Source of the DNA: Anaerophaga thermohalophila str. Valhall
Lineage (GTDB): Bacteria > Bacteroidota > Bacteroidia > Bacteroidales > Marinilabiliaceae
Direction of reading: 5' to 3'
Assembly (NCBI RefSeq): GCF_000250735.1
Contig: NZ_AHZV01000247.1
Location: forward strand, 1 to 35,583
DNA length: 35,583 bases
Shown here in pieces: positions 11,802-35,298 of this stretch; position 1 is the stretch's first letter; each line of letters starts with the position of its first letter. The translations under genes were made by a program, and so were the position numbers. Below the pieces are notes generated by a model. That model was not told the origin of the DNA. It saw nothing but the letters and a program-made list of their open reading frames with translations, and searched no databases.

Positions 11802-11842
11802 TTTGATCTTTTGATTCTCCATTTCCAATAATTGAAGTAACA

Positions 11843-11880
11843 GCGATATTGACATCCGAAATACCGGATATCAATATCGC
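11843..11880 (-). promoter_or_regulatory. Strong intercistronic hairpin after the DUF5018 gene
   Basis: A 16-bp stem (GCGATATTGACATCCG at 11843-11858 against CGGATATCAATATCGC at 11865-11880) with a 6-base loop. The only mismatch becomes a G-U pair when read from the minus strand, so the structure suits the operon transcript. It begins 12 nt after the DUF5018 stop and is not followed by a U run on that strand. An mRNA-stabilising or attenuating element is therefore more likely than a full intrinsic terminator. Confidence 0.65.
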
Positions 11881-13577: not shown

Positions 13578-15209
13578 TTATTTCCATTCGTCATATTGTT
13601 CTATTGCTGAATTGTTTGCCAGCTCACTATAAGGAACGGGCAGAACATAAGTCTTCTCAAGGAATTTACGATCCTTAAGATCACAGTCAACATATTCATA
13701 GAGAAAACCTCCAGCAGATTGGGAAATTTTCATTCCATGTACCCTGTAACCGTTGTATTCTGTATGAGCCAGTCGCCAACGACGCATATCCCAGTAAAGA
13801 TGTCCTTCGTAGGCGAGTTCAATTTTCCTTTCGTGACGGATGGCCTCAAAAAGCTCATCGCCAGTCAGTCCTGTTTTGTCAGGAAGACCAACCCTTTCTC
13901 TGACCTTGTTCAGATCATCCAGAGCTTTTCCGCTATTTCCTAAATTGTAATGGGCTTCGGCACGATTCAGGTATACCTCGGCCAGTCGTAATTCGACCCA
14001 TGGATGGGTGCTGTTGTATGTAACCAGATCGGTATGTTCTTCATCACGGTATTTGCGAAGATAGTAACCAGTAACTGTACGTCCTTTTGTGTAGGTATCT
14101 TCTCTGTATCCCATGTACCTCCCATTGGTGCCATCCACTGAATTTTCCATGGTTTTTCCCATCCAGTCAGAACCATTATATATAACTGTAGCATGAAAAC
14201 GCGGTTCCAACTCATCATAAGGAGGAGGTGTAGTAGTTCCACCTTCAACATGCCAGGGCGACCAGTCTACCTGAGTGCCGTCGGCTTTCTCATAAGCTTC
14301 AACCATTTCCTGGGTAGGTGTTCCGCTTCCCCCTTGATTTTCAATCTCACCATAAGTGGCATAAGCTTTATCAAAAGTGTGATTGGGCCCGGTAAGCAAA
14401 TAATTATACTCAAGAATAGACTCAGAATTACCGCCCTTCCAGGCATCTTCATACTCGTCGGTTAAACTATAAACTCCCAATGCCAACACCGAATCGGCTG
14501 CATTTTTTGCAGATTCCCAACGTTCTGCATATAACATTGCCCGCGATTTGAAAGCAAAAGCAGCACCTTTGGTTACACGCTCGCTTGCAGCATTATTCCA
14601 TTGAACGGGCAAAACAGAAGCAGCGAAATCAAGGTCTTCCTCGATAAGATCCCAGGTTTCTTCAGCTGTTGAACGATTTTTATCTTTTTGAAGATTCATA
14701 TCCGTATAAAGAATCACTCCGCCATGTCGCTTAGCCAGCTGGAAATAAAGAAATGCACGGAAAAAACGTGCCTGCCCTTCAAAAAGATTGTTGGTTTCCT
14801 CATCAAGCTCAGAATATTGCTCTAAACCAACCAGAAATTCATTGACACGCCTGATTCTTTCATAGGTTTCTCCCCATGTATCCAGCAAGTTTCCGGATGG
14901 AGATATTCCTTCAGGATCAAACACATACAAATTAGCGTCGCCGGCTTTACTTCCGGGGACATAAGAACCATATTTCAACGTTTCGGTCATCCCTTCAGTG
15001 AGACTCCCGTTAAACTGTGAAGTTCCAAAATTTCCATACCGGTCGAGGTAAGGATAAAATGCATTGACATAAAGATTAACGTTATCTTCATTTGCCCACA
15101 CCACTTCATCTGATATTCTGTCTGTCGGGGTTGTGTCCAGATAATCATCACAACCTGCGAAACCGACAACACCCAGAATAAGGGCTATATTAAATATGAT
15201 ATATTTCAT
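13578..15209 (-). CDS. SusD-like outer-membrane glycan-binding lipoprotein 1
   Basis: A RagB/SusD-family lipoprotein of 543 residues from the ATG at 15209; the frame also extends to a TTG at 15218. The signal ends GVVGFAGC, followed by the SusD hallmark DDYLDTTPTDRISDEVVWANEDN. TPR-like helices (ARFFRAFLYFQLAKRHGGVIL) and the C-terminal block HERKIELAYEGHLYWDMRRWR are characteristic. It acts as the lid of the TonB-dependent transporter SusC1, which is encoded 11 nt upstream. The start lies close behind the SusC1 stop, consistent with one transcript. Confidence 0.95.
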   Translation of the reverse strand: MKYIIFNIALILGVVGFAGCDDYLDTTPTDRISDEVVWANEDNVNLYVNAFYPYLDRYGNFGTSQFNGSLTEGMTETLKYGSYVPGSKAGDANLYVFDPEGISPSGNLLDTWGETYERIRRVNEFLVGLEQYSELDEETNNLFEGQARFFRAFLYFQLAKRHGGVILYTDMNLQKDKNRSTAEETWDLIEEDLDFAASVLPVQWNNAASERVTKGAAFAFKSRAMLYAERWESAKNAADSVLALGVYSLTDEYEDAWKGGNSESILEYNYLLTGPNHTFDKAYATYGEIENQGGSGTPTQEMVEAYEKADGTQVDWSPWHVEGGTTTPPPYDELEPRFHATVIYNGSDWMGKTMENSVDGTNGRYMGYREDTYTKGRTVTGYYLRKYRDEEHTDLVTYNSTHPWVELRLAEVYLNRAEAHYNLGNSGKALDDLNKVRERVGLPDKTGLTGDELFEAIRHERKIELAYEGHLYWDMRRWRLAHTEYNGYRVHGMKISQSAGGFLYEYVDCDLKDRKFLEKTYVLPVPYSELANNSAIEQYDEWK

Positions 15210-15220
15210 AATACTCAAAA

Positions 15221-18200
15221 TTAAAATGTCAGTTTAACACCCATTGAATAAATTCGCTGTTGAGGATAGTATCCATTGGATACGCCCGGTTGTTCCGGAT
15301 CGATATTGTACTTCGTCAACTCACTAAACGTTAATAAGTTCTGACCCTCAGCGTAGATTCTTAAAGTACTCATTCCTAAAGATGCAATCCATCTTTGAGG
15401 CAATGTATATCCAATTTGCATATTCTTAAGTCTCAAATAATCACCATTGCGATACCAGAAAGATGAGGAATAGGCATTGTTGGAACTGGCAGGTACAACA
15501 GCCAGTCTTGGGAATTCTCCATCCGGATTGTCCTCCCTCCAGGAATTTTCAATCAGATATTTTGGCGAATTTCCCCCGTGATAAAATGGCTTTGTCATTG
15601 AAGTATTGTCCATTATACCACTGGGATATACCCCGGTAAGAGCAACATCACGACCAAGAGCTCCCTGAAAAAGAAATGAAACATCAAAATTTCGCCATTC
15701 TCCGGAGAAAGAAAATCCTCCGATAAACTTGGGATAGGCTGACTTCCCGATGTATCCGCGATCCTGTTCATAAGTAATGACTCCATCGCCATTGCGGTCT
15801 TTATATTTAATATCACCGACACGAACATCTTTTCCCGGAATCAAAGGTGAATTATCGATCTCTTCCTGGCTTTGGAACAAACCTTCAGCAATAAATCCAA
15901 CCTGTGAACCAACTTCCTTTCCTGTAAGTTTGAGCCAGTCAGGCGTGTTTGGCGAATCACCATACCTCAACCATCTTCTTTTGGTATAGGTTCCGTTCAG
16001 GTTAATGTTGTATGAAAAGTCACCTATCTTATTTCGATGCGATAAATTGATTTCAAAACCTTTATGGTCCTGCTCATTATTGTTTGCATATCCCGGAACA
16101 TAACCACCGAAAGATGGAGGATAGGTAGCATCTACAGAGCTGAGCATATCATAAATATATTTATAGAAAACATCGAACTCAACGCCTAACCTGCCCTTCC
16201 AAAAAATAGCATCGAAACCTGCATTGTATTGCAAAGCCTTCGCCCATGTCAGGTTCCTGTTGGCAGGACGGGAGGTTATCAACCCGTTTTGAGGCTCTCC
16301 GTCAATAACGACAGCCGGATTGTTAAGAAACGAGAGAGTGTTCAGGTAATAATAAGGTGGAATTTCTGTTGTACCGGTCAAACCGATTCCACCTCTGAGC
16401 TTTAGATTATTAACAAACTCAAGGTTATCAAACCAGCTTTCCTCAGAAATTCTCCAGCCCAATGAAGCAGCCGGAAAAGCCCCCCACCGATCGTTCATTC
16501 CGCCAAATACATAGCTTCCGTCGTAACGGAATGAAAGCTCTGCAAGATATTTGGAAGCATAATCATAATTAAGCCTGCCAACAAACCCTACTTGTCTTTG
16601 TATATAGCTGCCACCGGAGACTTTGGTTTTTTCTTCGAGTGTGGCAAAATCGAGCTCATCCAATTCAATAATATCAAAACCATAGCCATAGGCACCAAAA
16701 TTATTTCCTTCTCTTTCGATGGTCTCTAACAGAGCAAGCGCAGAGATATTATGGTTACCAAATTGATTATCGTACTTCAGACTGGAATTGGTAGTCAGAT
16801 GCGTATACTTTGATGATCCTTCCACCAGGCTTGCGGTTTCACCCCTGGGATCGTATGTATATGAATAACTGATGTCTCCCTCAGGCGATGTTGGAGGATT
16901 TGCGACATAGGTATAATATGGCGTAGAGAAAGATTTTGATGTTTGATTTGACATGTCATAAGCCACCAGAAACTTGGCCTGTAATCCCGGAATAAACGGC
17001 ATGTGATAATTCAACGAAAGATTAGTTTGAATAATATTGGTTTTTACATTATTGTATCCACTTTTTTCAGAAGCCGCAATCGGATTAACATAAGAGCTGG
17101 CTGTACGCGTAGAAACAGGAACACCGTCAATTTCCTCTACTGCGTACGGATGTGCACGAATGGCCTGTTGTGGTATATTGTTCCAATCACCCGGATTAGC
17201 AGAAAAACCAGGGCGCTTTCTGTCTTCAACACGTGCCGAAATGTCAAACCGCAGATCAAGATTCTCGGCAATCACGGCATCGATATTGGAACGTAAATTA
17301 ATCCGGTCGAAATTAAATCCGCTGACATTACCTTCCTGGTCGAAATATCCCAGTGACGTAAAATACTTAATGTTTTCATTTCCTCCGGATGCATTTACAT
17401 TGAAATTCTTGTTGGTACCAATATCAAAAGTCTTATCGTACCAGTTGGTATTTCCCCATCCATCCGTCGGGTCATCATTTTGCATCATTTCAACATGCTC
17501 CGACGAAAATACAGGCTGGTCACCATCCATTTCGCGGGCTTTATTATACCAGTAAGCATATTCGGGGCCGTCCAGTAAATCCAGCATTTGAGTGTTTTCA
17601 CTAATACCGTAGCCTGCATTAAATGTGATTTGTGAATCCCCTTCCTGTCCTCTTTTGGTTGTTATGATAATAACAGCATTGGCATCCATCCCGTAAATCG
17701 CAGCTGAAGAAGCATCTTTCAACACAGAAACAGATTCAATTTCATTGGGGTCAATCTCAGAAAAGTCCCTTTCAATTCCGTCAACAATATATTTGGCAGA
17801 TGATCCGCGTACCAGCAGACTGGCTGCATCAGCCCCGGGCTGACCGGATTGTTGCAGGGAGATTACGCCGGGGACAACACCACCCAGTTTACTTGTAATA
17901 TTACCAACCGGGGCTTTAAGCAGCTTCTCTCCCTCTATCTGTGATACAGCACCGGTAACACTTGCTTTTTTCTGTGTTCCATACCCGACTACAACCACTT
18001 CGTCTAGTTCTGCCAACGATTCTTCAAGCGTAACGTTGATGGAACGTTGACCATTGACAGGAATCTCTTTATTATCAAATCCAATGAAGGAGAATACCAG
18101 TACGGCATTTCCATCTGTTACTTCGATTGAGTAATTACCATCAATATCAGTAATTACCCCGTTCGAGGTACCTTTTTCGACAATGTTGACACCTATTAAC

Positions 18201-18316
18201 GGTTCATTTTTTGTGTCAACTACCTTTCCCGAAACCTGATGCTGGCCTGCCAGCCCCTGAGCACCAAGCAAAGAAAAGAGCATTAAAAAACAACAATACA
18301 AATACAGCTTTTTCAT
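15221..18316 (-). CDS. SusC/RagA-type TonB-dependent outer-membrane transporter 1
   Basis: A protein of 1031 residues with a signal peptide ending near GLAGQ. An N-terminal carboxypeptidase-regulatory-like domain follows (VSGKVVDTKNEPLIGVNIVE). Next come the SusC signature LDEVVVVGYGTQKKASVTGAVS, a plug domain (VSVLKDASSAAIYGMDANAVIIITTKRG) and a long beta-barrel ending ...YSMGVKLTF. It imports oligomers in complex with SusD1 using TonB energy. It is the first gene of the operon and is preceded by a consensus Bacteroidota promoter at 18446-18477, giving a leader of about 120 nt. Confidence 0.95.
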   Translation of the reverse strand: MKKLYLYCCFLMLFSLLGAQGLAGQHQVSGKVVDTKNEPLIGVNIVEKGTSNGVITDIDGNYSIEVTDGNAVLVFSFIGFDNKEIPVNGQRSINVTLEESLAELDEVVVVGYGTQKKASVTGAVSQIEGEKLLKAPVGNITSKLGGVVPGVISLQQSGQPGADAASLLVRGSSAKYIVDGIERDFSEIDPNEIESVSVLKDASSAAIYGMDANAVIIITTKRGQEGDSQITFNAGYGISENTQMLDLLDGPEYAYWYNKAREMDGDQPVFSSEHVEMMQNDDPTDGWGNTNWYDKTFDIGTNKNFNVNASGGNENIKYFTSLGYFDQEGNVSGFNFDRINLRSNIDAVIAENLDLRFDISARVEDRKRPGFSANPGDWNNIPQQAIRAHPYAVEEIDGVPVSTRTASSYVNPIAASEKSGYNNVKTNIIQTNLSLNYHMPFIPGLQAKFLVAYDMSNQTSKSFSTPYYTYVANPPTSPEGDISYSYTYDPRGETASLVEGSSKYTHLTTNSSLKYDNQFGNHNISALALLETIEREGNNFGAYGYGFDIIELDELDFATLEEKTKVSGGSYIQRQVGFVGRLNYDYASKYLAELSFRYDGSYVFGGMNDRWGAFPAASLGWRISEESWFDNLEFVNNLKLRGGIGLTGTTEIPPYYYLNTLSFLNNPAVVIDGEPQNGLITSRPANRNLTWAKALQYNAGFDAIFWKGRLGVEFDVFYKYIYDMLSSVDATYPPSFGGYVPGYANNNEQDHKGFEINLSHRNKIGDFSYNINLNGTYTKRRWLRYGDSPNTPDWLKLTGKEVGSQVGFIAEGLFQSQEEIDNSPLIPGKDVRVGDIKYKDRNGDGVITYEQDRGYIGKSAYPKFIGGFSFSGEWRNFDVSFLFQGALGRDVALTGVYPSGIMDNTSMTKPFYHGGNSPKYLIENSWREDNPDGEFPRLAVVPASSNNAYSSSFWYRNGDYLRLKNMQIGYTLPQRWIASLGMSTLRIYAEGQNLLTFSELTKYNIDPEQPGVSNGYYPQQRIYSMGVKLTF

Positions 18317-22116: not shown

Positions 22117-23280
22117 CTACTCCTCATAAAGCAAATAAGGTCTTCTTTGCTCCTTAAACTTCTCAACATCATCAGTCCACATGGCTTCAATCTCTTCGGC
22201 CGGCCTGCCCTGCATAATCATTTCACGCACATAATCGACGCCTATGAGCTTTTCAAAAAAAGGCCGGAAAAAATGATTTCCGATATTCAGGTTATTGTAC
22301 GCATCGATCACATAAGACAAGTCAATGCCTTCTTCAAAAATCTTCTCATCCGGCAAACCGGAAAGATCAACACCATAACATTCTTTGTTCAGTTGAGGAG
22401 GATTTTTGGCGCCAGGCATACTCCTGGGGGTAAAGCTAAAATCATAGCCTTTCATATTGGGATGCCCGTATATCTGGAAAGGTTTTGAAGTTCCCCGTCC
22501 GAGGCTTACCGGGGTAGCCTCGAAATAACAGGTAGAGGGATAGAGGTAGATCGACTTCATGTTCGGAAGATTGGGTGAAGGCGGTACAGGAACATTGTAC
22601 AAAGTCTGGTGTGTATAATTATCACAGGTAATGACCTCAAGATCGCATTTCCGATCATCAGGAAGCCATCCTTCACCGTTCACCATATTTGCCAGCTCAC
22701 CAAGGGTCATGCCGTGAACAACCGGAATGGGGAGCCAGCCAACCCCAGACTTATGTTTCATATCCAGAATCGGTCCGTCGACGTAATGCCCGTTGGGATT
22801 GGGACGGTCAAGAATGATCATCTTTTTATCATTCAGTGCACATACATCCATCAACTTAACCATGGTAATATAATAAGTATAAAACCTGAGACCAACATCC
22901 TGGATGTCGACCAGCAAAATATCGAAATCATCCAGAATTTCCTGATCAATTCCGCCATTGTTTCCTCCATATAAGGAAAAAATCGGAAGTCCTGTCTTTT
23001 CATCTACGGAGTTCGATACATGCTCTCCGGCATCTGCCGTCCCCCGGAAACCATGCTCGGGAGCAAATATGCCAATCACATCAAAACTGTTTTCCAACAA
23101 AAAATCGACCAGGTGTTTGTCACCAACCAGGCCGGTATGATTGGAAAACACTGCAATACGCTGATCTTCCAGAAGCGGAAAATATTCAGAGGAACGCTCG
23201 GCTCCCACGATTACTTTTTGAGCGTTGGTGGTACAACCCAGAAAAAGAATCATTACTAAAATCATTTTAGTATAGCTCAT
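22117..23280 (-). CDS. namZ: DUF1343/GH171 exo-beta-N-acetylmuramidase (NamZ-like)
   Basis: A 387-residue exported protein. The start MSYTKMILVMILFLGC is a signal peptide that could also be a lipoprotein signal (LFLGC). The DUF1343 hallmarks are all present: VFSNHTGLV, IFAPEHGFRGTADAGEHV with the conserved Glu/His, LLVDIQDVGLRFYTYYITM, LDRPNPNGHYVDGP, and CYFEATPVSLGRGTSKPFQ. The characterised member, B. subtilis NamZ, removes terminal MurNAc from the non-reducing end of peptidoglycan glycan fragments. The gene stands alone between the SusD2 terminator and the dehydrogenase gene. It is the strongest single pointer to peptidoglycan as substrate in this locus. Confidence 0.92.
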   Translation of the reverse strand: MSYTKMILVMILFLGCTTNAQKVIVGAERSSEYFPLLEDQRIAVFSNHTGLVGDKHLVDFLLENSFDVIGIFAPEHGFRGTADAGEHVSNSVDEKTGLPIFSLYGGNNGGIDQEILDDFDILLVDIQDVGLRFYTYYITMVKLMDVCALNDKKMIILDRPNPNGHYVDGPILDMKHKSGVGWLPIPVVHGMTLGELANMVNGEGWLPDDRKCDLEVITCDNYTHQTLYNVPVPPSPNLPNMKSIYLYPSTCYFEATPVSLGRGTSKPFQIYGHPNMKGYDFSFTPRSMPGAKNPPQLNKECYGVDLSGLPDEKIFEEGIDLSYVIDAYNNLNIGNHFFRPFFEKLIGVDYVREMIMQGRPAEEIEAMWTDDVEKFKEQRRPYLLYEE

Positions 23281-23442: not shown

Positions 23443-25143
23443 CTATTCTGATTCCCATCCGGGATTCTGCTCAAGAGTATATCCATTGTCTTCATAGAGG
23501 GTAATCTGATCAAGTGGCAATGGGTCTAAGTATACCCTGGGATCGGTAAACGGACGTTGAGTTTCCTCTGCAACAGCAGGAATGATATAACCTTCATCTC
23601 CTCCTTCAAGGATAACATTTTTCATTCCCGGATAATCGGCAGCGCGAATATAAGCCCCGCGGTTAATATCAACGTTTTCTTTTGTATCGGTATACTCAAG
23701 TTTTTTCCATCTCTTAAGATCACCAAGACGATAACCTTCGAATACCAATTCCGTTCTTCTTTCACGACGAATTTCCCATATCATTGAAGGAACTTCAGGG
23801 TCTCTCTCAGGATCGTCATACACAACTCCGTTCACGGCAGGTTCTCCGCCAATGACCTGCAAATCAGGCAAACCATTTTCATAGCGCTGTCTCAGCTTGT
23901 TAATGGACTTGTCAAGATCGGCCTGAGTTAAGGTACCCAACTCGGCACAGGCTTCAGCATAGTTCACCAAAACCTCCCCGTAACGAATAACCGGGGCATC
24001 TGTCGGATTGTATGCGTTGGTAGCGATAGGTTCATCCATGATATCATAGTTCAAAAACTTATCGCAGGCATACCCTGTTGTTGAATAGTTTGAAACAACG
24101 CCGTTAATCCGAAGTGTATCTTCAACAAAAGTATCATACATTCTCGGATCACGATTGGCCATTACGTTATCGATACCATCATCGCCCTGATAAACTGAAG
24201 ATAAAGAAACAGGCAATCCGTCAGAACATAGATAAGACTCGATAAGGTCTTTAGATGCTCCTGTCTGGGCTTCCTGATTGACATAGGATACCAGGCAATG
24301 TGTCAGAACGCCTTCCACATAACTTCTGTAAAGGATCACCTCTTTATTATCGGCAAGATCCATACTGCTGAAAATTCCGTGATAATCAGGAACTATCTGG
24401 TAATCAAAGTTGGTAATAATCTCGTTGGCTGCCCATTTGGCGGCTTCAAGAAGTTCCTGAACATTGCTGTTTGGCACTTCATGATACTTCTGGAAAGTAC
24501 CTTCCCAAAGCATCATTCTCGACATAAAAGCCAAAACTACAGCACGGTTAACAGACAAACCGTTAACACCATCTTCATCCCGAACATTTTCTGCAGCAAA
24601 CCTGAAATCTTCCAAAACTTTTTCCATAACAAAAGTTCTGGGGTCTCTCGGTTTATACAAATAGTCCTTTTCTTCCGGTTCTGGAACATAGTCAAACCAC
24701 GGAACGTCGCCAAACCTTTGAACCAGGCGGGCATACTCTAACCCTCTGAAAAACCTGGCCACACCAGTCCAGTGATTAATGGCTTCTTCTTCCATAGGAA
24801 CCTGCTGAATCCTGTCCAGGAATAAATTGGCTTTACGTACATAGGTAAAATCCCATCCTCCGCCTGATGTCGGTACATTTTTGGTCCATTGTGGCGGGTT
24901 GGAAGGAGCAAAGTCATCGTTCAGACTCTGACCGGAAAAATAATCACCCCAGGTCCAGCCTTCACCATAGCCAATAAAGAAGTGTTGGTAGAACCCAAGT
25001 GAAAAAGTTCTCACATTTTCTTCACTGGTCCAAAAGTTTCCATCCGTCATCTGATCGATGGGCTTTTTGTCCAGAAAGTCATCTTCACAGCTCATAAAAG
25101 CCAACAGAGCTGCAAAAATCAACGATATTTTTAAATATTTCAT
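23443..25143 (-). CDS. SusD-like outer-membrane glycan-binding lipoprotein 2
   Basis: A RagB/SusD-family lipoprotein of 566 residues. The signal ends ALLAFMSC and is followed by the typical EDDFLDKKPIDQMTDGNFWTSEEN. TPR-like helices (ARFFRGLEYARLVQRFGDVPW) and the C-terminal WEIRRERRTELVFEGYRLGDLKRW are diagnostic. It pairs with SusC2, encoded 70 nt upstream. It shares only family-level similarity with SusD1, so the two pairs probably bind different ligands. It is the last gene before the UUCG terminator. Confidence 0.95.
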   Translation of the reverse strand: MKYLKISLIFAALLAFMSCEDDFLDKKPIDQMTDGNFWTSEENVRTFSLGFYQHFFIGYGEGWTWGDYFSGQSLNDDFAPSNPPQWTKNVPTSGGGWDFTYVRKANLFLDRIQQVPMEEEAINHWTGVARFFRGLEYARLVQRFGDVPWFDYVPEPEEKDYLYKPRDPRTFVMEKVLEDFRFAAENVRDEDGVNGLSVNRAVVLAFMSRMMLWEGTFQKYHEVPNSNVQELLEAAKWAANEIITNFDYQIVPDYHGIFSSMDLADNKEVILYRSYVEGVLTHCLVSYVNQEAQTGASKDLIESYLCSDGLPVSLSSVYQGDDGIDNVMANRDPRMYDTFVEDTLRINGVVSNYSTTGYACDKFLNYDIMDEPIATNAYNPTDAPVIRYGEVLVNYAEACAELGTLTQADLDKSINKLRQRYENGLPDLQVIGGEPAVNGVVYDDPERDPEVPSMIWEIRRERRTELVFEGYRLGDLKRWKKLEYTDTKENVDINRGAYIRAADYPGMKNVILEGGDEGYIIPAVAEETQRPFTDPRVYLDPLPLDQITLYEDNGYTLEQNPGWESE

Positions 25144-25213: not shown

Positions 25214-28200
25214 TTACATTGTCAGCTGAAGACCGAATGAAACAGTTCTTCTGAAAGGATAAGAACGACCAAAAGAGAAGCTGTATGCTCCTTCTCTGTT
25301 CCCGGTCTCGGGATCGATAGGAAGTTTCATATTATCAAATTCGAAAAGGTTCTCACCGCTGAAGTATACTCTTAAACGGTTTACTCCGACACGCGATGTC
25401 AGCCTGTTAGGTAATGTATATCCAACGGTAAGGTTCTTACATCTGAGATATGACATATCCATCAGATATTTAGTCTGGCGGAGGAAGTTTCTCGCGTTGT
25501 TCACCCAATCATGGTTGGTCGGGCGTGGATAGAAAGCATCAGGATTATCCGGTGTCCAGTAGTCTTCCTGATGTTCATACCATCCTTCTGCAGGTCTGTA
25601 TCCTGGTATGAATACGGGACCGGTAGCCCAGTAATCTCTTTTTCCTACCCCCTGGAAGAAAACACTCATATCGAAACCTTTCCAGTCGGCCCCGATCCGG
25701 AAGCTGTATTGATAGCGGGGTAACTCATTACCAATCCTTTTCAGGTCGCCATGGTCATCGGTACTGTTTGAACCATAGTTGATTTCGCCATCGCCATTGA
25801 GGTCTTTATATTTGATATCGCCAGGACCATAGAAGAACCATCCGCTTTCAAATGCCTCCTGAGTAGGGATTCCGTCTTTCATCACATACTTTCCGTCTTC
25901 AAGAACGAAATCACCATTGTTATCTTTTACAAAGTCATCTTCAGTAAAGAAGCGGTCGGTCTCATATCCCCAGATTTCACCAATCTCTTTTCCTTCATAG
26001 TACCCGTAAATGTTCTTGCTGTCACCGGCAAACCTGGTAAGCTCCTCACGAAAATCCCATAATGAAGCGGTTGCGTTAACTCTTAAACCGTTGGTAAACT
26101 GATGATTCCAGTCCATGGAGACTTCCCATCCGGTAGTCTGTACTTCACCAAAGTTTTGCTGCGGAGCAGAAGCCCCAAACGATGAAGGTAAGGTTTCACC
26201 TGTAGTTACCATATCGCTGGTTGTTCTCCGGTACCAGTCGAAGGTGAGCCCCAAAGTATTTTCAAAGAAGCGTGCATCAAAACCAAAGTCAACTGTTGTT
26301 ACTGTTTCCCATGTAAGTGTTTCTGGCACAACACGCGGACTCCAGACTGTAAGCTGATTGGTTCCACCCATTAACCAGTCGGAATTACCGGAACTCATAG
26401 TCGGAATATAGGTGTTTGCCCCAACATCATGGTTTCCAATAGACCCCCACGAACCTCTTAACTTAAGTGACGACAGATAAGGCTTCACAAAATCCATAAA
26501 TGGTTCCTCAGTTATGCGATATCCAACAGAAAATGAGGGGAAGAAAGCCCACTGATCATTTGAAGGAAAATGAGAAGAACCATCATAACGGCCATTCAAT
26601 TCAAACAGATAACGATCTTTAAAAGAATAATTGGCACGCCCGAAGAAACCTAAAGTTGACCAATGTGAACGGCCCCCGTCTACCAATTGATCGCCAGTAG
26701 CCAGGTCCAATTCAGCTTTATCCTTATCAATAAGCGTTCTTCTCTCTGAATTATGTCGCCAGTATTCGAAAGACTCAACATCGGAACCGGCCATCAACTT
26801 CAGTGAATGATCTCCAAAATCCCTGTCGAATGTTGTATAGGCTTTAAAAGTGCTGGTTTCATCCCATGCAGAAATATATTCCACCTGATTATGAGAAGAG
26901 CTGGTATAAACCATATACTGGTCAATACCGGTGTTGCCCCAGAAGTTGTATCCTTCGGCCCATCCACCGGGTTCATAAATATGGTTGTTATTTTCGGTAT
27001 AAGTATAATCCGCATCCAGCCTCCAGTCTTTGGCCAGATCGATAGTCGTACCTATGTTAACGCGCTGAAAGGTTTCCTTATCCTCAATCATATTAGCCTG
27101 AGAAACATCGGTAATGGAGCTTCTGAAAGGTTTTCCTTCATATGTTCCATAAGGATAATATTTAGGCCAGCGCAGGAGGTAATACCATGGATCGGCGCTT
27201 GTACCACTGTATGAATAAGGGGTCTTAGTGTTTGACTTTGACATCATCCCTTTAACCCTGAAGTTCATCCACTCTAACACCTGAGAATTCACATTGATGG
27301 TGGCATTGTAACGGTTGTACTCGTCGGGTTTTACCTTCAGAGATCCCCTTTGGTCAAGATACCCAAAAGAAAGATTGTACGTGGTATTTTCATTACCACC
27401 GCTAACAGTCAGGTTGTGATTTTGCTGTGGAGACCAGTCGCGAAGATAGAGTTCTCGCACATCCCATGGACGATAGTAGAACCAACGGCCATCACGGTAT
27501 TCAAAATCTCTGCCGAGTACCATTTCTCTGCCGAGGTCCTGACCACCATACTGCTCGCGCCAGTCTCTCATCTTTTGGATGGCTGTTTCATCAATGTACA
27601 TTCCAAGAGCACCAATTACATCTGTATTGGGGTTGATCCTGCGCTGAGCGGCAAAAGTCATTTCTGCTCCTTCAACGGTTCCCGCAATTTCGGGGATTTG
27701 AGTCGGCTTATTCCATGAAAAGTTATTGGAATAACTAATAGTGGCTTTATCCTCCTTCTTTCCGGTTTTGGTTTCAATAAGGATAACACCCCAGGCACCC
27801 CGTGAACCATAAATTGAAGCCGAGGCAGCATCCTTAAGCACCGAGATAGATTTAATATCGTCAGGATTGATCATCATCAGGTTAGGTACTTCCACGTTGT
27901 CAACAAGAATTAGCGGTTGAGCCTCGGTATTCAAAGAACCATTTATACCACGCAACCGTATATTCGGGTTCTGCCCCAAATCACCGGTTGAGCTGGTGAT
28001 GGTCAACCCGGGAGTAACCCCCTGAAGTCCTCTTGCTACATCTGTAATAGGACGTGCTTCAAGAGCCTCCTCAACATTTACGCTTGAGACCGAGCCTGTA
28101 AGATTGGCTTTTCTCATTTCACCATACCCTACAACTACCACATCGTCAAGCATCAAATCCGAAGGAGCCAGTAGCACGGTCACATTCTGACCGGCAGCAG

Positions 28201-28454
28201 CTTCCAAAGTCTGGTTCTCATAACCAATAAAAGAAAATCGCAATCGGACGGATTCTTCCTGAGTTTCAAGCTCAAAATTTCCGTCCATGTCGGTAATTGT
28301 ACCGCTTCCGGTACCAACTACAACAATGTTAACTCCGGGTATCGGCTCGCCGGATTCCTGATCCAGAACCGTACCCGTAATGTTCTGCCCAACTGTATAG
28401 CCTGTCAGCATACAGAATAGAGCTAAAAGCAACGAGATTTTTTTTGTTCATCAT
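25214..28454 (-). CDS. SusC/RagA-type TonB-dependent transporter 2, with a frameshift in an A8 tract at the signal peptide
   Basis: A TonB-dependent transporter with a carboxypeptidase-regulatory-like domain (ITGTVLDQESGEPIPGVNIVVVG), the signature LDDVVVVGYGEMRKANLTGSVS, a plug (ISVLKDAASASIYGSRGAWGVILIETK) and a barrel ending RTVSFGLQLTM. The uninterrupted frame can only start at a TTG (28432) inside the signal peptide. An upstream ATG pair (28454/28451) reads MMNKK in another frame. If the run at 28438-28445 (A8 on the coding strand) had seven bases, the sequence would be MNKKISLLLALFCMLTG, a normal signal peptide. I therefore extend the gene to 28454 with one extra base. It lies 41 nt after the metallophosphoesterase gene and before SusD2. 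Confidence 0.9.
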
Positions 28455-28495: not shown

Positions 28496-30358
28496 CTATC
28501 TAATATTCATGGGATGTCGAAGTTTCATGACCATGCCTTCCATTAAGGTTATCCAGAGGTTTCCCTCATCGTCGGTCACTATTTTGTTTATCGAAGAATT
28601 GCCGGCTTTGTATTTCCATAAAACCCGTCTGCCATCGGACGAGACAATCGTGACCAGCCCGTTTTTGGTAGCCCCGGCAACCCACTTGTTACCGGCCACA
28701 ACCGGGCACGGATTGTGGTCGTAGTTAATACCCGCGTCAATGGTCCACAATGTCTTTGGATTGGCTGTCAGGGAGGACATGGCTAAGATGGAATCGTTCA
28801 TCAGTTTGGCATAAACCTGTGTTCCGTCGGGGCTAATACCCATGGACTCACGCACCTGGTGCTCGTTTGTTCGCCATAGCTGCTTCCCGGTTTCAAGGTC
28901 GATGGCTGTCATATACCGGTCGGGGGCAACAATAAATACCTTCCCGTTAGAGATAACAGGCTTAATATTGCCGGGAGAATAAAGCTTCACGGAAGTGCCG
29001 TTGTTCCATTTCCATCTCAGCGCCCCCGTTTCTTTATCGAGGCTGTAAAGATGCCTGTCCCAGGCGCCAAAAACTACTTCCTTTTTGCCAAGTGCCGGTT
29101 TACCCTGAACCAGACCGTCTATATCGCTGTATTTCCAGAGAACAGAACCATCGGACATATCTATTTTGAAAAACCCGGAATGACCACCTCCGATATAAAG
29201 CACATCGTTTTCAACAGCACCCTCGGCAAGTACCGGAGATCCTGCATTTACGCTCCAAACTTCGCGGCCATCGGATACGTCCAGCCCGATTATATTGCCT
29301 TCCACATTCCCGAAAGCCACCACTTCACCATTGGTAACCGGTGTTGAAAAAAGTGCGCCTTCGTATCGCTTCTCCCAGATCGCCTTTTTATCAGCAATTC
29401 TTAAACCTTTGATATATCCCAGGGAGTTGCCATATACCAATAATGAATCATTAATAAGGCAAGGACCGGTGAAGATGGAAGCGGTATCTTTTAATTCAAA
29501 CTCTACCTGTACATCAGGATATTTTGAATTAACAGAATAATCGGGACGTGTCGAAACGGGAATTGCCTTCAATGTATCCGGGGATGACAAGTCGAAAGCG
29601 AAAAAGGGTTCTCCTTTACTTTCACCTGGCTCTTTATTAAAAACAAAAGCACTGTCATTCCTTAGTTCCAACAAGGTGAATCCGGGATCGTCGAATTGAG
29701 AAGTAACCAGAGAGCGCCCCATAATACCTGGAATTCCCTCAAAGTTTAAGAGTTTAAGTCTGTGGCCGTGGCCGCATAAATCAAGTTTACAATCATGTTT
29801 TTTAAGAATATCCACAACATCAGGCCAATTGTCCAAACCATCGGCCAGCGGATAATGCGCCATGGCAATCAGTACTTTATCGTTGTTTTCATCATCATTG
29901 AGCACCCTTTCAAGCCATTTCAGGTCTTCCTGCTTCACATGTCCGTCGCCCATTTTCATGTAAGGGCCGGTGTTGAATCCAACAAACAAATAATCTTCGG
30001 TGCTGAAAACAAATCTGTCGTTCTCCCAGAGCTCATTAAACATCAATCCGGCCGTTTCCGACCAATTGGTTTCATGATTTCCGGGAATTGTATAATACGG
30101 CACCGTGAGTTTGTCCAACACTTTTTTTGCAGCCAGCAGCTCCGCATTGGAACCGGTATTGGTCAAATCGCCGGTAACCACCACAAAGTCAGGCTGCAGT
30201 GCATTAATATCATCAACTACCAGATCAAGATTTTTCTCTGCCTCCGATCCTGGAGATACGTGAATATCGGTAAGTTGAGCAATTCGCAACGTTTCAGAAT
30301 CAGAATTGCAGGCAGAAAAACCAATAGCGACGATAAAAGCAAAGAATAGTTTTCGCAT
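28496..30358 (-). CDS. Metallophosphoesterase fused to a PQQ-like beta-propeller, lipoprotein
   Basis: Two parts in one exported protein. The N-terminal half is a calcineurin-like phosphoesterase with LTDIHVSPG, VVTGDLTNTGS, PGNHETNWS, MAHYPL and LCGHGHRLK, the usual set of two-metal ligands. The C-terminal half has PQQ-type propeller repeats, for example GREVWSVNAGSPVLAEGAV, DGSVLWKYSD, TGALRWKWNNG and TGKQLWRTNE. I chose the ATG at 30358 because it starts the lipoprotein signal MRKLFFAFIVAIGFSAC; an upstream ATG at 30391 adds 11 residues. It is the first gene of the SusC2-SusD2 operon. The substrate is unknown: a phosphate ester or phosphodiester on the imported material, or a cell-surface sensor role, are possible. 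Confidence 0.85.
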   Translation of the reverse strand: MRKLFFAFIVAIGFSACNSDSETLRIAQLTDIHVSPGSEAEKNLDLVVDDINALQPDFVVVTGDLTNTGSNAELLAAKKVLDKLTVPYYTIPGNHETNWSETAGLMFNELWENDRFVFSTEDYLFVGFNTGPYMKMGDGHVKQEDLKWLERVLNDDENNDKVLIAMAHYPLADGLDNWPDVVDILKKHDCKLDLCGHGHRLKLLNFEGIPGIMGRSLVTSQFDDPGFTLLELRNDSAFVFNKEPGESKGEPFFAFDLSSPDTLKAIPVSTRPDYSVNSKYPDVQVEFELKDTASIFTGPCLINDSLLVYGNSLGYIKGLRIADKKAIWEKRYEGALFSTPVTNGEVVAFGNVEGNIIGLDVSDGREVWSVNAGSPVLAEGAVENDVLYIGGGHSGFFKIDMSDGSVLWKYSDIDGLVQGKPALGKKEVVFGAWDRHLYSLDKETGALRWKWNNGTSVKLYSPGNIKPVISNGKVFIVAPDRYMTAIDLETGKQLWRTNEHQVRESMGISPDGTQVYAKLMNDSILAMSSLTANPKTLWTIDAGINYDHNPCPVVAGNKWVAGATKNGLVTIVSSDGRRVLWKYKAGNSSINKIVTDDEGNLWITLMEGMVMKLRHPMNIR

Positions 30359-30412
30359 TGGATATGGTAATTTAATCAGTCGTTTTCGCATTTCATTAGT
30401 ATATAATTTACT

Positions 30413-30514: not shown

Positions 30515-31666
30515 TTACCTGGGCACAACCCCTATTCCCGGCCTGTCGGGCAGCACCACGCGTCCGTCGACCACTTTCAGCCCGTCGAACACATCGTTGC
30601 TGATCAGGAGGTTTCCGTCCAGATCGGCCCAGTCGGCCAGGGGTGAAAGTTGGGCTGCTGCTGTTACCGCACAGGATGTTTCGGTCATACAGCCAAACAT
30701 TACTTTCATGCCAAGTCCTTTGGCGGTTAGCGCCATTTGATGAGCAGCCCGCATTCCGCCGCATTTCATCAGTTTGATATTAACACCACTGTAAACGCCG
30801 AATACTTTACTGATATCATCCATGGTTTGAACGGCTTCGTCAGCAATAACGGGAAGGGGACTCTCCTGAGTAAGCCGGGCAATATCGTCAACGGCCGTTT
30901 TAGGCATCGGCTGCTCCACAAAAACAACACCCTGCTCTTTCAGCCAGTGTATCATTTCGAGTGCTTCACCGCGGTCTTTCCATCCCTGATTCACATCCAC
31001 ACAAAGCGGTTTATCGGTAACGGCCCTCACATTTTCAATCATTTTGCGGTCGTTACCTCCGCCCAGTTTTACCTTCAGTATATTATAAGGAGCCGCCTCG
31101 CGGGTTTTTTCTCTGACAACATCAGGTTTATCAATGCCTATCGTGAAAGAGGTATCCGGTGTATGTTCGGGGTTGAATCCCCAAATGCGGTACCAGGGCT
31201 GTTGCATCAGCTTACCAACCAAATCATGCAGGGCAATATCTACCGATGCTTTGGCAGCATAATTGCCGGGTGCCAGACCGTCGATATATTCGAGAATATC
31301 GGCAATCAGGAAGGGGTCATTAAACCGGCTGAGGTCTGCTTTCGAAAGGAATTTCCGTACCGACTCATGACTCTCCCCAAGATATGGGGGCATAGATGCC
31401 TCTCCATAGCCCGTTATTCCGTCATATTCGATTTCGGTAAGCATCACCGGCGTAGTGGTTCTGCTGCCCGAAGCAAGAGTAAAAGCGTGTTTAAGCTGTA
31501 ATTCGTATGGTTTAAATTTTAATGTCATCTTCTTGCGCACCGTTGTTTTTCTCCTGTTGCCGGAACTATTGCACGCATTCATTCCGGTGACCAGAAATGC
31601 TGACCCGGCAATAAATCCGGCTGTTTTCAGAAAATCACGTCTGTTTTTGTTTTTTCCCATAATCAC
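30515..31666 (-). CDS. Exported dipeptide epimerase (L-Ala-D/L-Glu epimerase type, enolase superfamily)
   Basis: A 383-residue enolase-superfamily enzyme whose members convert L-Ala-D-Glu, from murein stem peptides, to L-Ala-L-Glu. Active-site blocks are visible: KVKLGG (Lys about 197), DVNQGW (about 225), VEQP (about 248), ADEA (about 273) and NIKLMKCGG (about 297), plus DLDGN near the C-terminus as in dipeptide epimerases. Unusually, it begins with a twin-arginine signal (NRRDFLKTAGFIAGSAF) ending near GMNAC, so it should be exported folded and perhaps lipid-anchored; well-known homologues are cytoplasmic. It starts 5 nt after the NlpC/P60 stop, an arrangement like B. subtilis ykfB/ykfC. 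Other dipeptide specificities are possible. Confidence 0.88.
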   Translation of the reverse strand: MIMGKNKNRRDFLKTAGFIAGSAFLVTGMNACNSSGNRRKTTVRKKMTLKFKPYELQLKHAFTLASGSRTTTPVMLTEIEYDGITGYGEASMPPYLGESHESVRKFLSKADLSRFNDPFLIADILEYIDGLAPGNYAAKASVDIALHDLVGKLMQQPWYRIWGFNPEHTPDTSFTIGIDKPDVVREKTREAAPYNILKVKLGGGNDRKMIENVRAVTDKPLCVDVNQGWKDRGEALEMIHWLKEQGVVFVEQPMPKTAVDDIARLTQESPLPVIADEAVQTMDDISKVFGVYSGVNIKLMKCGGMRAAHQMALTAKGLGMKVMFGCMTETSCAVTAAAQLSPLADWADLDGNLLISNDVFDGLKVVDGRVVLPDRPGIGVVPR

Positions 31667-31671
31667 GGTTT

Positions 31672-32838
31672 TTATGGTTTTGCGTACCAGGGATGTTTCA
31701 ATAAGTGGACGATACCTTCAGCTTCCCGACAGCCATTGATCCGTCTGGCTTTAACCAGTGTGTTTGCCCTGTAAGGGCTATAATTCAATCTGGTGCTGTC
31801 AAGACTGTTTATCTTCACTTTTCCTGCCTCATGTATAAACTCCGAATCGCCAATGTATAATCCCACGTGTGTAATCCGGTCACTCCCTTTGCGCGGAGCA
31901 AAAAAGAGCAAATCGCCTGTTTTGAACACCTCGAAGCCCTGGTCAACAGGTATTTCTTCTCCATACCCGGCCTGCAACGAGGCGTCCCTTGCCAGAACAA
32001 TTCCCTGAAGCCGGTAAACCGTTTTGGTAAATCCGCTGCAATCAAGGGCACGAACAGATGTCCCTCCCCATAGATAAGGGGTTCTGAGAAGACTTAATGC
32101 CCTTTTTTTAAGTTTCTGAACATCTGCCGAATCGGGAAAATGCACCTCATCAAAGGGTACAATATCCGATGCATTGACAAAACCTGTAATCCCGGCTGGC
32201 GTCGTTACAAAAACCTTATCATTTTCACGGTCGGTCTCTTCGATCAGGCATCCGGCAACCAAATCACCAACAACATTGCCGGTTGCTTTATCTCTGATGG
32301 CCGAACAACGACTTGTTACCATTACTTTCGGAGCTTTTTTCCAGGCTTTCCATCCGGCCGAATCGGTAAACTGAACAGCTGCCTTTTCGCACCATCCCAG
32401 GTACCGGTCGGGACTCTGAATGTATACCCACCCTCCTTTTTCTTTAAGGACTCTGACCGGCATTCCCATCAAAGCCTGGCTTACCATGGGGGCAGTATGA
32501 GAGGCTGACGAACGCATAGTGGCCACACTCAGATCGATAATACCAAAAGGTGCAGACACATTATGAGGCAAAACCACGACACTGTCCTGTATATAAAATC
32601 CGTTTGCAATCAAAGTGTCCATCAGCGCTGATTTCAGGGTCCGGTCATCAATTTCCCCTGACAGGATAAATGTTTTACCTCCTACACGTTCGAAGGAAAT
32701 ATCAAACACATTTTCCCGTAAGTCTCCCACGTTTTCATCCTGAAACTGCGAAATAACTTCATCTATCTTCCGGTCGCCTGCGCACCCCGAAAGAAGCACT
32801 AACAAAGAGATTATTATGCCGAAAATGAATGCCTTCAT
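31672..32838 (-). CDS. NlpC/P60 lipoprotein, likely gamma-D-glutamyl-diamino acid endopeptidase (YkfC-like)
   Basis: A 388-residue lipoprotein (signal ending LLVLLSGC). A divergent N-terminal domain is followed by SH3b-like segments (GMPVRVLKEKGGWVYIQSPDRYLGW and KVFVTTPAGITGFV) and a C-terminal NlpC/P60 cysteine peptidase. The catalytic Cys is in ALDCSGF (about 266), the His in THVGLYIG (about 321), and a third polar residue in FIHEAG (about 335). The layout matches YkfC-type enzymes that cut between D-Glu and the diamino acid in free muropeptides with an N-terminal L-Ala. That product is the substrate of the dipeptide epimerase encoded 5 nt downstream. A consensus promoter and operator-like sites lie upstream. 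Confidence 0.9.
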   Translation of the reverse strand: MKAFIFGIIISLLVLLSGCAGDRKIDEVISQFQDENVGDLRENVFDISFERVGGKTFILSGEIDDRTLKSALMDTLIANGFYIQDSVVVLPHNVSAPFGIIDLSVATMRSSASHTAPMVSQALMGMPVRVLKEKGGWVYIQSPDRYLGWCEKAAVQFTDSAGWKAWKKAPKVMVTSRCSAIRDKATGNVVGDLVAGCLIEETDRENDKVFVTTPAGITGFVNASDIVPFDEVHFPDSADVQKLKKRALSLLRTPYLWGGTSVRALDCSGFTKTVYRLQGIVLARDASLQAGYGEEIPVDQGFEVFKTGDLLFFAPRKGSDRITHVGLYIGDSEFIHEAGKVKINSLDSTRLNYSPYRANTLVKARRINGCREAEGIVHLLKHPWYAKP

Positions 32839-33846: not shown

Positions 33847-35298
33847 TTACAACCCTTTAACATCCACATTGTATGTCCAGTCATCAAAGTACAGGTTTCC
33901 GTTTTTCCATTCTGCCTCGCCTCTCTGAAAGTCCCAGGGTTCGCTCCGGGGCCATTGTTTCGGGGGACAAAACCGGCGGCCGTAATCTTCATTCACGATA
34001 AACCGGTATGCATCAATTCCTGATATGTAAAATTCCCTGATTCGCTGATCATCGCTTCTTTGCAGCTTAAAAGAAACATCCACGGGCACCCATCCTACGC
34101 CGTCGTACCATACCTGACACCAGTCGTGCAGGTTTACATGTCCGGGATGCAGCATCCATCCGCTTTGCCAGCGTGCGGGAATACCTTTGTAGCGACACAA
34201 GGTCATGAACAGCAGGGTTTGCATTCCGCAGTCACCATGTTTATGATCCAGTGTATATTCGGAGATGTTATTGATTAATCCGTATTCAACGGCCCTGGCC
34301 CAGGGAATATTCTCATTAATCCAGTAATAGAATTGTCTTACCATTTCAAAAGGAAGCATCCCGTCATCGGTGAGTGAGTCGGCCAACTCCTTTATTCTGT
34401 CGCTAAAAACAATATGAGGAGGCCTTTCGGCCAGGTAAGGCAACAATGTATCGGGGATGGTTGTAAAACGTGACTGCATCAATTGTTCAGGAGCGAAATA
34501 CTGAGCTTTGCCGGTAATTTTTGAAACTATGGAGAATTCTGCTGCACCGTCACTTCCTGCTTTCTTTTGCAGGAAAACCGACTGATGGGGACATTCTCTT
34601 GCACTTATCTCAAAATCTTCTACCGAACTCCTCAGAAGTTTAACGTCCGTTTGCCTTTCACTGCCGCGGGTCCCGAAAGGCAACCATACAGAAACCATAC
34701 TGCCGGGAGTAACATTTCCGGGTAAAACTTTTAACGAATAACTGAGCATAAACTCTCTGGGACAAACCGTTTGTCCAGGCTGTTTAGAGGCCGACTCTGC
34801 AAAAACATTCCTGATGTGTTCCACACAAAATGCTCCCAGGTCATCGTCATTAAGTCCTTTTACACCTGCTACGGCAGCAAGCGAATCGTTAAGAAGAACA
34901 AGATTGTAGGGTGCATTTTTGAAGTATCTTTTCTTCCCGTCAATCAGCATACACTCAAGTTGTCCGCTATGTTCCCACTGCCGCATTTGTTCCACGGTAC
35001 ACTCAATACCTTTACGCTCGAGCCTTTCAACAATATCATTCTCCGTAAAGGGATACTCGCTTTGGTATCGTCTCATGTAATCTGTCAAACTGTCAACAAA
35101 AAATCTGATTTCCGGCTCAACAGGCTCTCTTACCCGGGCAATCGCTTCCCTGAGTTCCGAAAATTCACGGGCATTATATAATCTGCTCAGATGGGAGATT
35201 AGCGCTTCGTCAGATTTTTTATTATTATTGCATGAAACGCCCATCATAAGTAGTAGTCCCCAGTAACTCACCTTTTTAATTATATTACATATTATCAT
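33847..35298 (-). CDS. Transglutaminase-fold lipoprotein
   Basis: A 483-residue lipoprotein (signal ending MMGVSC, then NNNKKSDEAL). The C-terminal third is a transglutaminase-like cysteine peptidase fold: Cys in KHGDCGMQTL (about 357), His in HVNLHDWCQVWYD (about 388), Asp in VPVDVSF (about 405). The N-terminal 300 residues include an alpha-helical region (YNAREFSELREAIARVREP) and a beta-rich middle (SMVSVWLPFGTRGSERQTD) that I do not recognise. The activity is unknown; proteolysis or amide hydrolysis of a surface peptide is possible. The gene is solitary, has its own promoter and operator-like site, and is flanked by inverted copies of a 133-bp element. The shared 16-bp site links it to the NlpC/P60 operon. 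Confidence 0.85.
   Translation of the reverse strand: MIICNIIKKVSYWGLLLMMGVSCNNNKKSDEALISHLSRLYNAREFSELREAIARVREPVEPEIRFFVDSLTDYMRRYQSEYPFTENDIVERLERKGIECTVEQMRQWEHSGQLECMLIDGKKRYFKNAPYNLVLLNDSLAAVAGVKGLNDDDLGAFCVEHIRNVFAESASKQPGQTVCPREFMLSYSLKVLPGNVTPGSMVSVWLPFGTRGSERQTDVKLLRSSVEDFEISARECPHQSVFLQKKAGSDGAAEFSIVSKITGKAQYFAPEQLMQSRFTTIPDTLLPYLAERPPHIVFSDRIKELADSLTDDGMLPFEMVRQFYYWINENIPWARAVEYGLINNISEYTLDHKHGDCGMQTLLFMTLCRYKGIPARWQSGWMLHPGHVNLHDWCQVWYDGVGWVPVDVSFKLQRSDDQRIREFYISGIDAYRFIVNEDYGRRFCPPKQWPRSEPWDFQRGEAEWKNGNLYFDDWTYNVDVKGL

Follow-up and report, generated by a model that had tools for sequence, protein, structure and literature searches.

The window analyzed here, a stretch of DNA of 35,583 nucleotides, carries on its minus strand a gene pair in which a dipeptide epimerase of the enolase superfamily with an N-terminal Tat-type signal (30515..31660) lies directly downstream of a gene for an NlpC/P60 protein with SH3b domains (31672..32838). 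The epimerase ORF has an ATG start, and a GTG at 31666 is also possible (the ORF would then cover 30515-31666); depending on this choice, the epimerase begins 5 to 11 nt after the end of the NlpC/P60 gene. About 1 kb upstream of the NlpC/P60 gene, also on the minus strand, is the gene for a transglutaminase-like lipoprotein (33847..35298), which, given this gap, is perhaps transcribed separately. Downstream of the epimerase, the same-strand run continues with a metallophosphoesterase with a BamB-like propeller (28496..30391), a SusC-like TonB-dependent receptor (25214..28432), a SusD-like protein (23443..25143), and a homologue of the exo-beta-N-acetylmuramidase NamZ (22117..23280). A scan of the window for promoters and terminators gave a site count not above that of shuffled sequence. 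Elsewhere in the window, two GHL10-DUF4985 genes (7234-8568 and 10440-11855) lie near a second SusCD pair (13578-18316).

The epimerase ORF starts MGKNKNRRDFLKTAGFIAGSAFLVTGMNAC, which has the form of a twin-arginine signal and may include a lipobox. The predicted signal peptide, MGKNKNRRDFLKTAGFIAGSAFLVTGMNA, is encoded at 31574..31660 (minus strand); its motif RRDFLK (31625..31642, minus strand) occupies residues 7-12 counted from the ATG, and an h-region of 15 residues (mean Kyte-Doolittle 1.47) comes next. R7, R8, and F10 of the motif reach 90% conservation or more among 74 family members, and when the extension was shuffled, a motif appeared within the first 14 residues with p = 0.002. 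The twin arginine of the window protein is 6 residues from the ATG, compared with 2-4 residues after the start codon in 136 of the 143 distinct Tat-type N-termini. Cys30 (31571..31573, minus strand), 23 residues after the first Arg, is a possible lipidation site within a weak lipobox (NAC). Among the 143 distinct family signals, 37 have a [GASNT]C pair in the expected range, and a Cys stands 23-24 residues after the twin arginine in 27. The TIGR01409 profile scored the window epimerase at 13.2 bits, under its curated cut-off of 16.7 bits. The prediction from this single sequence is therefore weak, and the case is carried by conservation.

To place the signal in its family, 249 loci bearing relatives of the epimerase were classified: 145 with RR, seven with KR or RK, 96 signal-less, and one cut by a contig end. 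Four of the RR entries repeat one locus, and hence the Tat-type extension is present in 148 of the 244 related loci fetched, window included; four further pairs with identical cores bring the distinct Tat-type proteins to 144. Three individual cases deserve mention. The RR that decided the class of L150 is a chance pair upstream of its real motif, KR; in L154 the nearest start codon is more than 14 residues from the motif; and L061 is a partial gene that was counted as signal-less. A sample of the class, in which 75 of 295 genomes matched, supplied 70 of the fetched loci. The order gave 72 matches in 70 of 393 genomes, and every one but that of G615 was fetched; a wider contig search supplied the best 80 of 576 confirmed stretches; and a single genus, with 88 of 99 genomes matched, supplied 30 loci. 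This sampling is biased by similarity, and the fractions are not natural frequencies. The Tat-type loci are mostly from Bacteroidota. Some are on contigs labelled Ignavibacteria, Gemmatimonadota, Acidobacteriota, Neomarinimicrobiota, and Rhodopirellula, where a single label may be wrong, most contigs of the wider set being metagenome-assembled genomes (MAGs).

Across the 148 loci, the first motif column holds R or K in 142 and 6 cases, the second in 147 and 1, F follows in 144, and the next conserved column is L in 103 or I in 37. In 19 close pairs with signals of equal length, substitutions in the signal-coding DNA are distributed over the codon positions as 152/116/330, and in all 19 pairs that differ in signal length the difference is a multiple of 3. 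This codon-position bias, together with the in-frame length changes, argues that the extension is translated and under selection. For a search with TIGR01409, every second of 146 Tat-type members was taken together with the window; 54 of these 74 matched at E ≤0.1 and none of the 25 nearer signal-less members at E ≤0.08, the signal-less search at E 0.1 having left three of 28 families unlisted. PF10518 matched 35 of the same 74. Conservation, codon-position bias, and the HMM contrast rule out a chance motif or a wrongly called start. The original prediction that the epimerase carries a twin-arginine signal is thus confirmed at the level of sequence, as a general trait not peculiar to the window; the signal-peptide prediction proposed as its check was weak for the window protein alone, which scored below the curated cut-off, and gave a match at E ≤0.1 for most of the Tat-type members searched. 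Two genomes encode two epimerase copies each, one Tat-type and one signal-less (L074 and L126 in G617; L099 and L121 in G316).

The window's genome encodes one TatC (G000:C272:44985-45686, E 2.9e-64). Among the 68 order genomes with a classifiable best copy, TatC was found in 47 of 47 with a Tat-type epimerase versus 17 of 21 with a signal-less one (Fisher p 0.007, uncorrected for relatedness; G453, which is cut, and G615, whose match is at a contig end, were excluded), and two of the four TatC-less order genomes belong to one genus. In the class set, TatC occurs in 66 of 71 genomes. A locus was fetched from 66 of these 71, always signal-less or, in L061, partial; 61 of the 66 have TatC, and the five TatC-less class genomes are all among them. 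No TatC-less genome has a Tat-type copy, while most genomes with signal-less copies do have TatC, and TatC loss therefore explains few of the signal-less copies. Taking the signals and the TatC distribution together, predicted Tat-dependent export of the epimerase is well supported by sequence. In the four order genomes without a TatC match (L116, L118, L120, and L122), the signal-less epimerase has no NlpC/P60 relative in the available flank.

The start codon bears directly on this reading, and the original prediction had itself named a start at the Met before TLKFKPYELQ as what would overturn it. An ATG is indeed present there in the window (31526..31528, minus strand), at approximately the position where signal-less relatives start. 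This coincidence, together with the weak TIGR01409 score of the window protein, is what could be said for an unused twin-arginine extension, with the internal Met as the real start and a cytoplasmic enzyme. Against it stand the conservation of motif and frame over 148 loci, the codon-position bias, the TIGR01409 contrast described above, and the absence of the signal in the four of 71 order genomes without a TatC match, and we regard an unused extension as very improbable. Alternatively, two starts in one gene could yield an exported and a cytoplasmic epimerase, so that L-Ala-D-Glu would be processed on both sides of the membrane. An ATG is kept at the signal-less start position in 80 of the 144 distinct Tat-type genes, the window's included, and a start-capable codon (ATG, GTG, or TTG) in 95; besides, G617 and G316 encode both types of copy, as if some cells used both sides. 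However, the remaining 49 of the 144 have no start-capable codon there, and hence an internal start cannot be the general rule, although a second start in the window is possible. Moreover, the position favors Met or Leu anyway, and retention of the ATG may be structural or a relic. Such a dual location seems unlikely to us.

The phylogeny gives some indication of how the signal-bearing form arose. In a tree of 88 rows (53 Tat-type, 35 signal-less), a supported branch (96*) separates all 53 Tat-type proteins from nine of the 10 more distant signal-less proteins that served as outgroup; the tenth, L137, falls on the Tat-type side. The Tat-type side also contains other signal-less lineages, and the best tree has 11 changes, of which at least 5 are forced by starred branches; a quicker tree of 239 rows has 15 changes, at least 11 of them forced. 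Read most simply, the trees suggest that the ancestor was cytoplasmic and that the signal was gained early and then lost several times; repeated gains are also possible.

The best match of the window epimerase in the PDB is the chain of 3iji, 3ijl, and 3ijq, which we take to be BT_1313 of Bacteroides thetaiotaomicron with dipeptide ligands; L220, whose gene is identical to the 3iji chain, has 63% identity to the window epimerase over the core. The residues K198, K200, D224, E251, D276, K298, D348, and D350 (GTG numbering) are identical in 148 of 148 Tat-type and in 95 of 95 signal-less sequences (one position at E251 was unreadable, and the partial L061 was excluded). These presumably comprise the KxK and second catalytic Lys, the metal ligands D/E/D, and the DxD that binds the dipeptide. 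A relaxed, dead enzyme is ruled out by the intact catalytic residues of all 148 Tat-type sequences. The window protein scored below the NCBIfam equivalog cut-offs (NF011708, 153/343 bits; NF041118, 103/500 bits; NF042940, 214/400 bits), and its assignment is therefore to the family and not to an equivalog; its substrate would be L-Ala-D-Glu. In the window's genome, the MR_MLE_C profile has four matches, the window gene included. The match on C39, considered as a second cytoplasmic epimerase, was rejected, for its 416-aa product resembles a sugar-acid dehydratase by eye. The C353 match, flanked by genes judged by eye to be menaquinone-related, is probably MenC, and that on C8 is below the cut-off. 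In the epimerase search, only the window gene was matched in its own genome at E ≤1e-60.

The partner protein begins MKAFIFGIIISLLVLLSGCAGD, a lipoprotein-type signal whose LSGC lipobox is standard as judged by eye, in keeping with the further claim that the NlpC/P60 partner is a lipoprotein. Its structural model (mean pLDDT 94.1) best matches BT_1314 (4r0k, 3pvq) and BACOVA_00612 (3npf), followed by YkfC of Bacillus cereus (3h41). D266, C267, S268, and H324 are invariant in 35 members, and D285, H336, and Y146 are at least 90% conserved; we take Cys-His-His to be the catalytic residues of NlpC/P60 enzymes. In YkfC, according to the available text of PMC2954226, a conserved Asp and an SH3b Tyr read the free N-terminal L-Ala, and, judging from an alignment, the window protein appears to have residues corresponding to this pair (Asp256/Tyr118).

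Within the available flank, an NlpC/P60 gene neighbors the epimerase in 126 of 148 Tat-type versus 6 of 96 signal-less loci, a contrast uncorrected for relatedness; at least 1.3 kb of upstream sequence was available in 130 of the 148 and 87 of the 96, respectively. Of the six signal-less exceptions, three are Parapedobacter loci, two are f44 genomes placed with these in the tree, and one is a Melioribacteraceae contig. When seven independent pairs were drawn from the tree, approximately three agreed with the coupling to NlpC/P60 and none opposed it, with four showing no difference (median p 0.25, too few pairs for significance).

The transglutaminase-like lipoprotein may belong to the same pathway. 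Its model (pLDDT 90.4) best matches 3isr, a putative cysteine protease of Cytophaga hutchinsonii; Cys357, His391, and Asp407 are invariant in 19 sequences, its N-terminal region is unassigned, and no NCBIfam family matched it. Where 3.2 kb or more of upstream sequence was available (57 Tat-type loci), 48 loci have the NlpC/P60 gene and 19 have a transglutaminase-like gene nearby. In L187, a Muribaculaceae MAG, transglutaminase-like and NlpC/P60 domains share one 741-aa ORF that starts 2341 bases upstream of the epimerase core, and this fusion points to a joint function of the two domains. We consider this lipoprotein a candidate for a new peptidoglycan-peptide enzyme.

NamZ and SusCD beside the epimerase suggest a peptidoglycan-utilization region. 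Neighbors of the epimerase in other Tat-type loci include NamZ (12 loci), GH3-beta-lactamase fusions (8), NagB-like (8), AmpG-like (6), and MurQ (4) proteins, and a metallophosphoesterase-propeller homologue recurs in 8 Tat-type loci, window included; these families are BLAST clusters with one representative each checked, and the counts are given without a background. NamZ, GH3, and MurQ were each found beside a single signal-less locus as well, and as 3.2 kb of upstream sequence is available in 7 of the 96 signal-less loci, the two groups are not comparable on NamZ-type neighbors. The recurrence of the NamZ, GH3, NagB-like, AmpG-like, and MurQ neighbors points to peptidoglycan salvage as the setting, and the peptides probably derive from scavenged or self-derived peptidoglycan.

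In known systems, the same two activities are placed differently. Like the window pair, YkfA-C of Bacillus subtilis and MpaA-YcjG of Escherichia coli combine a gamma-D-Glu-DAP endopeptidase with a subsequent L-Ala-D/L-Glu epimerase, and ykfB and ykfC are adjacent in B. subtilis. However, that pathway acts in the cytoplasm after import, as far as the available text of PMC2954226 describes it, and its recycling scheme draws the epimerase in the cytoplasm, whereas both window proteins carry export signals. The same text gives YkfB of B. subtilis and B. cereus as without a predicted signal peptide, which bears out for YkfB the original premise that characterized epimerases are cytoplasmic. B. cereus shares with the window an exported YkfC-type peptidase (3h41) and an adjacent epimerase (Xu et al. 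2010, PMC2954226, available text); it differs in that the epimerase is signal-less and import of L-Ala-D-Glu is proposed. It is the Parapedobacter loci L155, L158, and L163 and the grouped genomes L006 and L007 that resemble the B. cereus arrangement, not the window.

A closer parallel is found in Bacteroides. A gene in G678 is identical to the 3iji chain over 335 of 335 residues compared; its ORF begins MPNRRDFLKTAAFATLGSGIAVSQVLAGE and carries a Tat-type signal, MPNRRDFLKTAAFATLGSGIAVSQVLAG. Between the NlpC/P60 protein beside it and the BT_1314 chain, 281 positions could be compared, of which 3 differ. This 3iji-identical gene, which we take to be BT_1313, thus has the same kind of signal and neighbor as the window epimerase. 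In structure, the window NlpC/P60 protein is matched most closely by BT_1314 and the Bacteroides ovatus protein 3npf. In the available text of PMC12071298, recombinant BT_1314 hydrolyzes Tri-DAP, and vesicles are found to contain the protein. BT_1314 is predicted as Sec/SPI (PMC9397113, available text), whereas the window NlpC/P60 looks like an SPII lipoprotein with a longer N-terminus. Xu et al. 2010 recorded the adjacency of ykfBC in B. thetaiotaomicron, and the available text of PMC2954226 yielded no discussion of a signal on the Bacteroides epimerase; the word epimerase is absent from the main text of PMC12071298 and PMC9397113. Literature searches, largely of open-access papers, found no paper on an exported dipeptide epimerase, the sole text match pairing a Glu epimerase with twin-arginine being an unrelated genome paper.

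Thus, the gene pair is quite probably an extracytoplasmic version of the YkfC-YkfB murein-peptide pathway. The epimerase would fold with its metal in the cytoplasm, be exported by Tat, and possibly be lipid-anchored at Cys30; in the periplasm it would turn L-Ala-D-Glu into L-Ala-L-Glu. Ordinary dipeptidases could then act on the L,L product, or, in relatives, POT transporters could import it. We infer the location of the epimerase, its substrate, and the fate of its product. That L-Ala-D-Glu is made and epimerized outside, as originally proposed, agrees with the conserved export signals on both proteins and with the YkfC-type coupling; the last step of that proposal, in which ordinary peptide transporters bring in the L,L-dipeptide, is not supported in this genome. 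Searches of the window's genome (371 contigs, 99.97% complete) gave no match to POT, OPT, or SBP_bac_5, while positive controls matched. POT is present in 68 of the 71 order genomes searched (67 above the cut-off) and absent from G000, G363, and G532, all Tat-type. Import by POT is therefore possible in relatives; here, given these missing matches, it is more likely that the L,L-dipeptide is cleaved outside the cytoplasm or enters by a carrier other than POT, OPT, or SBP_bac_5. The Mpl profile has five matches in the window's genome, all below the cut-off (best 171 versus 388.7 bits).

The exported enzyme might instead act mainly on other dipeptides, such as X-D-Glu or X-L-Glu from protein digestion or L-Pro-D-Glu, with the NlpC/P60 protein not its main source of substrate. 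More than one dipeptide ligand occurs among the PDB entries of the closest solved epimerase, the window protein scored under every NCBIfam equivalog cut-off given above, and 22 of the 148 Tat-type copies have no NlpC/P60 neighbor in the available flank (18 of the 148 have less than 1.3 kb upstream). Yet the strong gene association with a YkfC-type peptidase, the repeated presence of NamZ, MurQ, and AmpG-like genes in the surroundings, and the identity of the catalytic and DxD residues in Tat-type and signal-less groups all speak against this, and a main role on other dipeptides appears improbable. Beyond the extracytoplasmic gene pair itself, we propose, tentatively and with some doubt, that the whole stem-peptide route is extracytoplasmic. 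SusCD would take up the material, NamZ would act on the glycan, the transglutaminase-like lipoprotein, as a cysteine enzyme of novel function, would act on the stem together with the NlpC/P60 protein, and the Tat-exported epimerase would remove the D-configuration ahead of transport across the inner membrane. D-Glu dipeptides would thereby become usable by periplasmic L,L-dipeptidases, and no dedicated murein-peptide permease would be needed.

The gene behind the crystallized epimerase 3iji itself encodes a Tat-type signal, which is not mentioned in the literature examined. If the extracytoplasmic reading is true, Bacteroidales and several other groups remove the D-center of peptidoglycan peptides before import. 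This would change which transporters are needed and which muropeptides survive around the cells, including NOD1 ligands such as Tri-DAP.
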